Assembly (NCBI GenBank): GCA_011052215.1
Contig: DRJK01000120.1
Coordinates: forward strand, 1-34,136
Source of the DNA: Gammaproteobacteria bacterium
GTDB lineage: Bacteria; Pseudomonadota; Gammaproteobacteria; JAADHQ01
DNA length: 34,136 nucleotides
Reading direction: 5' to 3'
A program made the translations under genes and the position numbers. This document shows, in pieces, positions 29,288-33,411 of this stretch (positions within the stretch are counted from its first letter, which is position 1; every line of letters starts with the position of its first letter). A model generated the notes under the pieces. The model did no database searches. It was not told the origin of the DNA and worked only from the letters and a program-made list of their open reading frames with translations.

Positions 29288-30082
29288 TCATGCTTGCCTG
29301 ATTTTTTCCGTGGCGTCACCTTCAAGGTATTGTTGTAGTCGAGTTCGGTTCAGGATGCGTATTTCACCACGCGGGGCATCAATGATTTTACTTCGTTTTA
29401 ATTCTGCTGTAATCCTGCTCACGGTCTCTTCGGCCAGACCGAGCATCTCGGAGAGTTCCAGTCGTGACAGGATCAACGAGCGCTCTTCATTTGAACTGTC
29501 CTGCTCAGGTGAAAGGGAAAGAATGAGTGACGCCACTTTTTCGGACGCCATTTTGTGCCCAATGGCACGGATCAGCGCATGAGATTGTTCAAGCTCATCA
29601 TTTAACGCATTTATAATGCGTATGGATATGGACGGGTGATCCTGCAGGAGTTTGAGTATAGACTTGTGTCGTACCTTGCACACCTGGGATGCGGTCATTG
29701 CGGTTGTATCATAAGGGTGTACGCGGTCATCAAGCTTATGGAAACCGATTAGATGCCCGGGTTTGGCCAGGCCCAGAATTTGTTCACGGCCGCCAGCGAT
29801 AATGTTGGAGAGTTTTACGTGACCCTCCCTGAGAATGTATAAATAGGTGCTGGGCTCACCTGCACGGAACAATATTTCACCTGCCTTGTATTGCTGCATG
29901 GTGATCATGCTCCGAACCCCGCATTCGGCCTCCGCAGGAAGTCCCTCGTATAACTCCCTGTCACACAATACACATGAGCCGATCTGGCACTGGCAGCCAA
30001 TCAATTTAATTTTCCCCTTATAAAAATGTGTTTTACAGATAAAGGGTAACTGATTGGCGAGGCAAATAATATACCGTGTCAT
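29288..30082 (-). CDS. Crp/FNR-family transcriptional regulator, FNR-like
   Basis: N-terminal Cys cluster GCQCQIGSCVLC, central Cys in ASQVCKVRHKSIL, cNMP fold EILFRAGEPSTYLYILREGHVKLS, HTH LSRLELSEMLGLAEETVSRITAELKR. True start may be downstream. Confidence 0.87.
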   Translation of the reverse strand: MTRYIICLANQLPFICKTHFYKGKIKLIGCQCQIGSCVLCDRELYEGLPAEAECGVRSMITMQQYKAGEILFRAGEPSTYLYILREGHVKLSNIIAGGREQILGLAKPGHLIGFHKLDDRVHPYDTTAMTASQVCKVRHKSILKLLQDHPSISIRIINALNDELEQSHALIRAIGHKMASEKVASLILSLSPEQDSSNEERSLILSRLELSEMLGLAEETVSRITAELKRSKIIDAPRGEIRILNRTRLQQYLEGDATEKIRQA

Positions 30083-30213: not shown

Positions 30214-30227
30214 TTGATAGTAGTCAA
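30214..30227. promoter_or_regulatory. FNR-type box
   Basis: TTGATAGTAGTCAA versus TTGATNNNNATCAA: 9/10 conserved positions, in the intergenic region between the FNR-like gene and the cytochrome-porin gene. Confidence 0.65.
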
Positions 30228-30389: not shown

Positions 30390-31598
30390 ATGAAAAAATC
30401 ATATACTACATTGTTCGCTGCATTATCCCTGTTACCATTCATGCTGGGTTCTTTCAGTGCCCAGGCAGTTCCCAGTTTTGCCCGGCAAACGGGCATGGCC
30501 TGTTCATCCTGCCATACCACATATCCGGAACTAACGGCATTTGGCCGCAGGTTCAAGTTACTGGGGTACACCATGACAAACAAAAAACTGGGAGCAAAGG
30601 GCCTGAGTATTGGGCAGCTTCCGCCTATCTCGGTCATGCTGCAAGCAAACGCAACAAATACCAAGGCAAATAACCCCAAATCCAATTCCGAGTTGCCCAG
30701 CGAACTCAGTCTATTTCTGGCAGGACGTATCTCACCCGACATGGGCTCCTTCATACAGGTAACAATGGAGCAGGATACCGGCTTTGCCATTGACAACACC
30801 GATATTCGTTATGCCAGGCAATCAGGTGATAACATTTATGGCATTACACTGAATAACAGCCCCACAACGCAAGATGTCTGGAATTCAACACCTAACTGGG
30901 GATATCCATGGACCGGGGGAGCCAGTGTCAACGCACCCATCATTGCCAGTCTCGGGCAGAGTGTCGCTGGCCTGGGGGCCTATACCCAGATGGGCAACGG
31001 ATTATATGCGGAACTCAGCTTTTATCGTGAAACCGGCGGTTTTGATGCACCGGCAGGAGGGGTAACCGGAACGGCCCGCATAAAAGGCCTTGCTCCATAC
31101 TGGCGCTTCGCCTGGGAGAAGAACCTGTCAAACGGTGATAACCTGATGGTGGGTACTTATGGCATGCAGGTTAAATTGTATGATAATGCCAGCACTCCAG
31201 TGGCAGGCCAGGACAAATACAGAGATATTGCTATTGATACGCAATACGAACATTTTGTCGCGGATAGTGACGACTTGATCAGCGTACATGCCACTTACAC
31301 ACATGAAAAACAAACCCTGGGTATGAGCGCGCCAGGCACATCACCAAAACTGAAGAGTTTGCGTCTTGATGGTACCTATCATTGGGGGCATCGAGTAGCC
31401 GCAACACTGGGTTATAACCAAAATTCCGGCAATAGTGGCGCATATGATGATAATGCCTGGACAGGGCAGATCAGCTACCTGCCCTGGTTGAACACCAAGT
31501 TCACTATCCAGTACACCGCCTATACCAAGTTGGCGGGAGTAACAAGTACGGCCTCAGACAACAATACCTTGCTCTTGCAAGCATGGCTCATGTGGTAA
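30390..31598 (+). CDS. Secreted protein with one N-terminal c-type heme motif and predicted outer-membrane beta-barrel (fused cytochrome-porin, Cyc2-like candidate)
   Basis: Signal peptide ending SAQA, then VPSFARQTGMACSSCHTTYPELTAFGRRFKLLGYTM (CxxCH at 30501-30515), then ~330 aa with alternating amphipathic segments and a terminal aromatic (LLLQAWLMW). Confidence 0.65.
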   Translation: MKKSYTTLFAALSLLPFMLGSFSAQAVPSFARQTGMACSSCHTTYPELTAFGRRFKLLGYTMTNKKLGAKGLSIGQLPPISVMLQANATNTKANNPKSNSELPSELSLFLAGRISPDMGSFIQVTMEQDTGFAIDNTDIRYARQSGDNIYGITLNNSPTTQDVWNSTPNWGYPWTGGASVNAPIIASLGQSVAGLGAYTQMGNGLYAELSFYRETGGFDAPAGGVTGTARIKGLAPYWRFAWEKNLSNGDNLMVGTYGMQVKLYDNASTPVAGQDKYRDIAIDTQYEHFVADSDDLISVHATYTHEKQTLGMSAPGTSPKLKSLRLDGTYHWGHRVAATLGYNQNSGNSGAYDDNAWTGQISYLPWLNTKFTIQYTAYTKLAGVTSTASDNNTLLLQAWLMW

Positions 31599-31618
31599 AA
31601 ATACACACAACATTAATA

Positions 31619-31643
31619 CCTGAGTATGGTTTTCATACTCAGG
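31619..31643 (+). terminator. Terminator-like hairpin after the cytochrome-porin gene
   Basis: cctgagtatg-gtttt-catactcagg 10-bp perfect stem, followed by cattcttt. Confidence 0.55.
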
Positions 31644-31797
31644 CATTCTTTAAATCTTCCCGGTGGATCAGCTTGAAGTATTCGTTAGGCTGTATTTTGG
31701 TGGAAGAAGCTACAAGATATTTCATTTGACTTCTGCCTTGCATTCACTCAGTAGTTTTTCTTAACCACTTCACTAGCTCATTATCATATTTTTCTTG

Positions 31798-32094
31798 TTA
31801 TGTATATGTGTTTTTCGCATTGAACCTTAGCTCTGCATCTTTATATGTCATTTCCATTAAACTTGGTGGCCCGCCTCCATGCATTTCACCTTGCGGGTAA
31901 TATAATAACCAGAATCGCTGATCTTTTGGATCTTGATATAGTTTTTCCCATCCGGATACATCAACTCTAATCAATTTAAAAATGTCTGTAATTAACCATT
32001 CAATTCTTTTGCATGCTTCATTGGACGAAATCTGATCGTCAGTAACTACCCACATACCTTCAATCAATGTTTCATTTTCAGATATTACTTTCAT
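31798..32094 (-). CDS. Imm27-like immunity protein
   Basis: LIEGMWVV, ACKRIEWLITDIF, DVSGWEKLYQDPKDQRFWLLYYPQGEMHGGGPPSL fits the Imm27 family pattern. Confidence 0.7.
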   Translation of the reverse strand: MKVISENETLIEGMWVVTDDQISSNEACKRIEWLITDIFKLIRVDVSGWEKLYQDPKDQRFWLLYYPQGEMHGGGPPSLMEMTYKDAELRFNAKNTYT

Positions 32095-32126
32095 TAATTT
32101 TTATTTTCATTTTCGTTCTGTATACC

Positions 32127-32603
32127 CTACACTTTCTCGTAAGAATGCCTGGCATCCAACTCAAGCAGGTAAGGAGCTGCAAAACCTTCATACTCTTTCT
32201 TCTTTTCGTCTGGTAAATTTTCCCATCCTGTAATCCTGCCTCGACATCTCTTAGATCCACACATGCACTTCTTCGGAAAGTAGTCGATAATATAGTTTCT
32301 CATAGCATAATCGAATGTTATTTCTTCATTAACACCAATTTCATTTATTGCAATATAATCATGTGCGCCAGTTTCGTTTACTCTAATACCACAATTGGGA
32401 TCACAGGAATGATTAACCTTGGTTATTAATCCAGCATGAAGCACATACTCATTTTCGCCTACCTGCGAAGCATGAGAGTGATTCCCATTCAGCGCTTCTT
32501 TAATAACGCCAACCATTACTATGTCACTAACCTTAAATGATTTTTTAGCGAAAATACCTTCTCCCTTTCCAGAAGACCTCCTTAACTCAAACCCATCTTT
32601 CAT
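32127..32603 (-). CDS. SET-domain protein (candidate lysine methyltransferase) with post-SET cysteines
   Basis: GKGEGIFAKKSFKVSD, KVNHSCDPNCGI, GVNEEITFDYAM, CMCGSKRCRGRI. Confidence 0.85.
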   Translation of the reverse strand: MKDGFELRRSSGKGEGIFAKKSFKVSDIVMVGVIKEALNGNHSHASQVGENEYVLHAGLITKVNHSCDPNCGIRVNETGAHDYIAINEIGVNEEITFDYAMRNYIIDYFPKKCMCGSKRCRGRITGWENLPDEKKKEYEGFAAPYLLELDARHSYEKV

Positions 32604-32621
32604 AATGTAGCCTCATTAAAA

Positions 32622-32738
32622 ACCCAACGTAGAGTTCAGCTGCATTTTACTTGCTGCGTTTTTTGCGTGAAAATAAGAGCGTAGTGATCACGCAAAAAAC
32701 GCAGCAGGTAAAATGTCAGATGCAACGACTTGTTATGT
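32622..32738 (-). repeat. attC-like integron recombination site
   Basis: Minus strand ACATAACAAGTCGTTGCA ... GCTGAACTCTACGTTGGGT: RYYYAAC-like R'' (one mismatch) and exact GTTRRRY R' box, with a long internal stem (attttacctgctgcgttttttgcgtga / its complement with one mismatch). Confidence 0.75.
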
Positions 32739-32791
32739 TGCGAACCTGCAATATATTATATTCAACTATACAATTAAACAAAAAAACGGCT

Positions 32792-33411
32792 TCACGATGA
32801 CTTACTGGTTGTGACCCAAAGAAATGTTTCATTTGCAATGCAATGATAGCCTTTTGACTCAACACTAAAACCCACATCTCCTAATAGCTTAAACAGTATA
32901 TCAGGTGTTTCATGGCTATAGAATAGTTGTTGGCCTAAGAACTCTTTATATCCGTCAAACTCTTCGCTTCCTGTATATCTTTTGCAGCATAGGTAAAGAG
33001 GATTTTTCCATTTGGAGTGAGCCATCGATATAGCTTGTCAAAAAGCGCACCATGTTGATTCTTTGGGATATGAAACATACTATATATCAATGTAATCGCG
33101 TTAAACTCTCCGTCATCGAACACAGCGGTACATATATCTGAGCATATCGTTTTCATTGCTGGAATATGCTTATTTGCTAACGATAACATTTTTGGAGAAA
33201 AGTCTACTCTGGTAACTGACCAACCTCTGTCAACAAACAACCGAGCGACAGGCACTCCAGCACCGCAACCCGGATCGAGTAAACTGCCCTTGTCAGTTTT
33301 CAGGCTACCCTGATAATTTAGAATTATTTCATCAATATCAAAAAGATCACGACTGTTATCGTAAGATTCTGCAAATTTATCATAAATATTCGACAGTTTT
33401 TCCATTTCCAT
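32792..33411 (-). pseudogene. Class I SAM-dependent methyltransferase disrupted by a frameshift
   Basis: ORF 32935..33411 (LLDPGCGAGVPVARLFVDRGWSVTRVDFSPKML ... LTPNGKILFTYAAK) continues in another frame in ORF 32792..33025 (RYTGSEEFDGYKEFLGQQLFYSHETPDILFKLLGDVGF). One extra A in the AAAA run at ~32980-32983 would restore a single frame. Confidence 0.75.

Follow-up and report, generated by a model that had tools for sequence, protein, structure and literature searches.

The chief marker of neutrophilic Fe(II) oxidation is Cyc2, a family whose Cluster 2 is large and mostly uncharacterised experimentally. Keffer et al. (2021, PMC8406198) set out the features of the family as a signal peptide, a single CXXCH, the motif AXPXFAR[Q/K][T/Y], a PXL, a length of at least 365 aa and a 16-strand porin, with OprO and OprP as published structural templates. 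The motif AXPXFAR[Q/K][T/Y] upstream of CXXCH is said there to be unique to Cyc2, and Clusters 2 and 3 are described as largely distant from any tested protein, so that further functions are possible. Cluster 1 comprises proteins of Mariprofundus, Gallionellaceae and Chlorobium, Cluster 2 those of Acidithiobacillus ferrooxidans and of the rus operons of Acidihalobacter and Acidiferrobacter, and Cluster 3 the Cyt572 type. Other outer-membrane electron conduits, such as MtrAB, MtoAB and PioAB, pair a multihaem cytochrome, as a protein of its own, with a larger barrel of 26 strands (PMC10654088).

Here we describe a protein for which we propose the conduit function of the latter systems, and which shares with Cyt572 a single haem site fused to a barrel. 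It is encoded in a window of 34,136 nucleotides, the whole of contig C120 (DRJK01000120.1) from a Gammaproteobacteria bacterium assembly (GCA_011052215.1; 2.61 Mb, 183 contigs), and its gene is single-copy in that genome. The main features of the protein, in positions of the window, are the following.

30390..31598, + strand: cytochrome-porin gene of the Cyc2 family, Cluster 2-like, 402 aa (sequence, conservation, AlphaFold2, tree, profile)
30390..30467, + strand: predicted signal peptide, residues 1-26, ending in AQA before VPS (sequence by eye; helix 5-19 in the model)
30465..30491, + strand: Cyc2 consensus motif AVPSFARQT, A26-T34 (sequence; definition in PMC8406198)
30501..30515, + strand: single haem c site CSSCH, C38-H42 (sequence; Cys and His invariant in 91 homologues)
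30627..31592, + strand: predicted 16-strand beta-barrel, residues 80-401 (AlphaFold2; Foldseek to porins including OprP and OprO)

Family membership and predicted fold

The protein is a Cyc2-family fused cytochrome-porin, in which all the sequence and structure features tested were found. The open reading frame starts with ATG and has a hydrophobic leader ending in SFSAQA before VPS, where an AQA-V site was judged by eye and the AlphaFold2 model places a helix at residues 5-19. It contains FARQTGMACSSCHTTYPELTAFGRRFKLLGY, a single CXXCH (CSSCH), AVPSFARQT at residues 26-34 and, as the PXL, PEL at residues 46-48, while its 402 aa exceed the published minimum. The C-terminus reads LLLQAWLMW, the last residue being tryptophan. 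The AlphaFold2 model, calculated with 91 homologues (mean pLDDT 87.3, pTM 0.86), shows an N-terminal helical haem segment followed by exactly 16 strands. Its nearest solved folds in Foldseek are 16-strand porins, with OprP (2o4v) at rank 7 and OprO (4rjw) at rank 16. An earlier note on this DNA had proposed, from the letters alone, a signal peptide, a single CxxCH and a barrel-like remainder ending in an aromatic residue, in the manner of Cyc2, and our results bear out both the layout and the family.

Searches of Pfam and NCBIfam returned no informative match for the 402-aa protein, nor did a sequence search of the PDB, and a profile search of the PDB gave only a weak N-terminal match. The reading frame is nevertheless not a chance one, because homologues are widespread and share invariant residues: P28, R32, Q33, C38, C41, H42, L48, G52, F55 and K56 are identical in all 91 sequences. 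Of 369 gammaproteobacterial-class genomes, 47 have a homologue (E<=1e-10), as do 19 of 399 phylum genomes (E<=1e-20). GTDB contigs contain homologues at no fewer than 586 places, among them contigs of Acidobacteria, Bacteroidota and Myxococcales.

For the position of the protein within the family, the cluster references were stand-ins recognised by motif, tree or rus operon rather than named published sequences. We take proteins with the spacing CHFQ-FPxL to be Cluster 1-type, and FARKY-type sequences, which include no named Leptospirillum reference, to be Cluster 3-like. Keffer et al. ask for a BLASTP match of E<=1e-5 to a reference from one of the three clusters. In single pairwise BLASTP comparisons with such stand-ins, the window protein aligned end to end with a rus-operon protein from the cyc2 slot, at 36% identity (E 1e-80), whereas its match to a Cluster 1-type protein covered the N-terminal part only (E 6e-21). 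A quick tree of 72 sequences gave three clades: one of CHFQ sequences, one of FARKY sequences and a third with 49 rows (SH-aLRT 100). The last includes the window protein and the rus-operon protein L126, together with plasmid-borne homologues from Caballeronia, Paraburkholderia, Methylocystis, Ideonella and At. ferrooxidans. Because this clade with the cyc2-slot protein is fully supported, we call the window protein Cluster 2-like, a label that holds for a quick tree with stand-in references. The phylogeny against Cyc2 clusters foreseen in the earlier note gave this Cluster 2-like placement, and its alternative of a related but separate cytochrome-porin family lost ground, as the protein falls with rus-operon Cyc2 and not with Cluster 1 of the neutrophilic iron oxidisers.

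Comparison with the Cluster 1-type proteins shows a common architecture (signal peptide, CxxCH, AXPXFARQT and 16-strand porin) and profile homology over the full length (374 columns, 99.9%, E 6e-34). The Cluster 1-type proteins differ in forming a separate clade and in a CHFQ-FPxL spacing that is one residue longer than that leading to PEL in the window protein. The FARKY-type stand-ins likewise form another clade. With Cluster 2 the likeness extends to full-length homology with the rus-operon protein, the motif and the 16 strands, which are also predicted for the rus-operon cyc2-slot protein. The operon of this relative runs cyc2-cup-coxB-A-C-D-ctaA-ctaB-rus, with coxB, coxA, ctaA and the cupredoxin backed by Pfam, an order similar to that of Acidihalobacter (PMC10654088) but without cyc1. 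A further rus gene set, in genome G208, starts at a contig edge and is without cyc2.

The locus and its host

Unlike the rus-operon cyc2 genes of Cluster 2, the window gene does not lie in a rus operon but adjoins a gene for an FNR-like regulator; the rus order cyc2-cyc1-cup-cox-rus is absent from the window, where the gene stands alone with a terminator. The surrounding features are as follows.

29288..30082, - strand: divergent FNR-like regulator of the Crp/Fnr family, with a Cys-rich N-terminus CQCQIGSCVLC and the recognition helix EETVSR (Pfam/NCBIfam, sequence)
30214..30227, no strand assigned: FNR-type box TTGATAGTAGTCAA, matching 9 of 10 positions and lying 176 nt upstream of the ATG (box scan; weak alone)
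31615..31647, no strand assigned: bidirectional intrinsic-terminator-like hairpin with a 14-bp stem, 3' of the cytochrome-porin (sequence)

The cytochrome-porin is probably transcribed alone, because the terminator-like hairpin directly follows it. Two genomes of the same genus retain ppk-ppx-pgl-mpl-ubiX-lon at the corresponding site. Next to these genes they have, by reading, a DedA-like gene and hemL in place of the window's regulator and cytochrome-porin. Both genomes lacked the cytochrome-porin when searched, and the regulator had no close match in them, the best being about 30% identical and elsewhere in the genome. Since the site is empty of the pair in these two relatives, regulator and cytochrome-porin form an accessory module, and the absence of the gene from same-genus genomes argues that it is not part of core metabolism. 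A foreign origin is unsupported by composition, as the cytochrome-porin (GC 0.50, GC3 0.53) matches the host housekeeping genes. Adjoining it at 31798-33411 are genes for an Imm27 immunity-like protein, a SET-domain protein and a methyltransferase with a GC of 0.35-0.39, which suggest a variable region.

Host metabolism was sampled through targeted searches and a few sequence stretches. The genome encodes one RuBisCO (form II by sequence reading), three COX1-type haem-copper oxidases and about 15 c-type cytochromes, as well as SoxY (Pfam) and, by eye, SoxZ, ATP sulphurylase and NarGH. No MtrB or PioB was found in it, and no match to rusticyanin. The host thus looks like a sulphur-oxidising, RuBisCO-bearing autotroph, a further difference from the Cluster 2 organisms named above. 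What the present copy adds to an otherwise ordinary Cyc2 member is its Cluster 2-like placement, its setting, in such a bacterium, beside an FNR-like regulator with which it makes up a small accessory module, and the low-oxygen operator signal across the family that is presented below.

FNR-type boxes upstream of the clade

The recognition helix ETISR of FNR reads TTGAT, and the EETVSR of the window regulator resembles it. Moreover, the relative at locus L049 is adjoined by a regulator 41% identical to that of the window. The gap between regulator and cytochrome-porin spans 307 bp and holds the box TTGATAGTAGTCAA, which has one mismatch and lies further upstream than in the relatives. Taken alone this box proves little, because about 5% of shuffles reach it (p about 0.05).

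Across the clade the signal is not marginal. Counting boxes with at most one mismatch within 300 bp upstream of a gene, we found them before 19 of 83 clade genes, where shuffled sequences would yield 1.2. Among the other genes at the same loci 12 of 667 had a box, which corresponds to an odds ratio of 16; as the related sequences are not independent, the P value serves as a guide only. Two further gene sets carried boxes in 10 of 30 and 4 of 11 cases, three of them perfect in each set, with permuted palindromes averaging less than one gene per set. Clear boxes are found among the nearest relatives as well, namely TTGATTCAGATCAA in L036, TTGACATAGATCAA in L077 and TTGATATATATCAA in G251. In contrast, none of the 14 Cluster 1-like genes, recognised by motif and tree, has one upstream. 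The boxes upstream of this Cluster 2-like clade are new here: within a partial coverage of the literature we found no earlier report of FNR-type control of the Cyc2 family, nor any FNR operator of cyc2 described in the papers that treat cyc2 together with FNR.

Acidobacterial and Bacteroidota members have CRP-type boxes in place of the FNR-type ones, many of them perfect. A perfect TGTGAN6TCACA stands upstream of the cytochrome-porin at L053, L055, L057, L060, L062, L067 and L068, and likewise at L071, L079, L094, L098, L099, L111 and L114. In three FARKY-type (Cluster 3-like) loci, L133, L155 and L156, an FNR box with a single mismatch lies at about -122. A histidine kinase open reading frame of the window contains two perfect palindromes of the FNR type (2400-2413 and 2934-2947), probably by chance.

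The earlier note had allowed for activity under low oxygen. This part of its reading gains support from the FNR-type operators of the clade and from the FNR-like neighbour, the window's own box being weak. The shared operator, seen in three gene sets and missing in Cluster 1-like genes, is a testable clue that the clade works under oxygen limitation, and cautions against reading each Cyc2 match as aerobic iron oxidation. Tentatively, and with somewhat more doubt than conviction, we suggest that Cluster 2-like conduits may be a widespread class under Crp/Fnr-superfamily control, with FNR-type sites in Proteobacteria and CRP-type sites in Acidobacteriota and Bacteroidota, that would be induced at low oxygen for anaerobic or microoxic electron exchange with iron in many bacteria that are not regarded as iron oxidisers.

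Proposed role and competing readings

We consider it reasonably probable that the window protein is a low-oxygen-induced outer-membrane electron conduit of the Cyc2 Cluster 2-like type, its most likely task being the uptake of electrons from Fe(II). The protein would be exported by Sec and then receive haem c at C38-H42, its 16-strand barrel residing in the outer membrane and plugged at the periplasmic mouth by the short haem domain. Electrons could then move between dissolved external iron and periplasmic carriers, with an oxidase or the quinone pool as the next station. The haem-copper oxidases and a c4 cytochrome that the host encodes elsewhere, 35% identical to the c4 adjoining relatives, are the likely partners. 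As an accessory single-gene transcript next to a divergent FNR-like regulator, the conduit would probably be switched on at low oxygen. Against this explanation count the missing carrier gene next to the window copy, the marginal window box and the absence of the gene from the same-genus genomes.

Fe(II) oxidation is favoured as the net direction because oxidation of Fe(II) has been shown for tested Cyc2 proteins of every cluster (PMC8406198). Sequence by itself does not decide between this and Fe(III) reduction, and the same conduit could possibly run in reverse as an anoxic terminal Fe(III) reductase, passing electrons from sulphur oxidation through the bc1 complex and c4 to extracellular Fe(III). 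Such a role has been proposed for At. ferrooxidans Cyc2, whose protein level rises in anaerobic growth on H2 and Fe(III) (PMC7735108; review PMC8790237). The anaerobic FNR-type boxes of the clade, the sulphur-oxidation genes of the host and the Rieske/cytochrome b partners found beside the gene in Acidobacteria would all suit it. The published role was, however, deduced from omics, whereas the biochemistry of Cyc2 from all three clusters is that of Fe(II) oxidation, and the +208 mV of PV-1 Cyc2 suits, at neutral pH, the acceptance of electrons from Fe(II) (PMC8406198). On balance we hold the reversed direction to be unlikely, if worth keeping in view.

The breadth of the clade, which spans Proteobacteria, Acidobacteriota, Bacteroidota, Myxococcota and bacteria of peat or soil, the last not known to us as iron oxidisers, raises the question whether the protein might use a donor that is not free Fe(II). 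The same fold could take up electrons from a solid sulphide or iron mineral, a cathode or a partner cell, or have another redox role, and additional Cyc2 functions are allowed for by Keffer et al. (PMC8406198). Yet a narrow barrel plugged by a single haem is predicted to favour dissolved Fe2+ over solids (PMC8406198), and one clade member lies in a rus operon, which leaves such donors improbable in our estimation.

The genes around the relatives bear on the respiratory role itself. An electron-carrier gene (Pfam) lies close by in 45 of 83 relatives, be it a dihaem c4-type cytochrome, Rieske with cytochrome b/c, or HiPIP; no such gene adjoins the window copy or the relatives closest to it, L036 and L077. 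On an annotated Caballeronia plasmid, HiPIP, cytochrome-porin and a c-type cytochrome stand in a row, and c-type cytochromes adjoin the cytochrome-porin on annotated plasmids of Ideonella and Methylocystis. The barrel resembles those of general and phosphate porins and the window copy lies outside any electron-transport operon, as would befit an ordinary solute porin that takes no part in respiration and whose plug is decorated with haem. This is hard to reconcile with the frequent carrier neighbours and with a CxxCH and surrounding motif that are invariant in 91 sequences, and we regard it as very improbable. At 13 of 80 loci (e.g. L045:4231-4929 and L091:9899-10477), the cytochrome-porin is followed on its 3' side by a gene for a coiled-coil, BamE-like protein of about 200 aa with a signal peptide.
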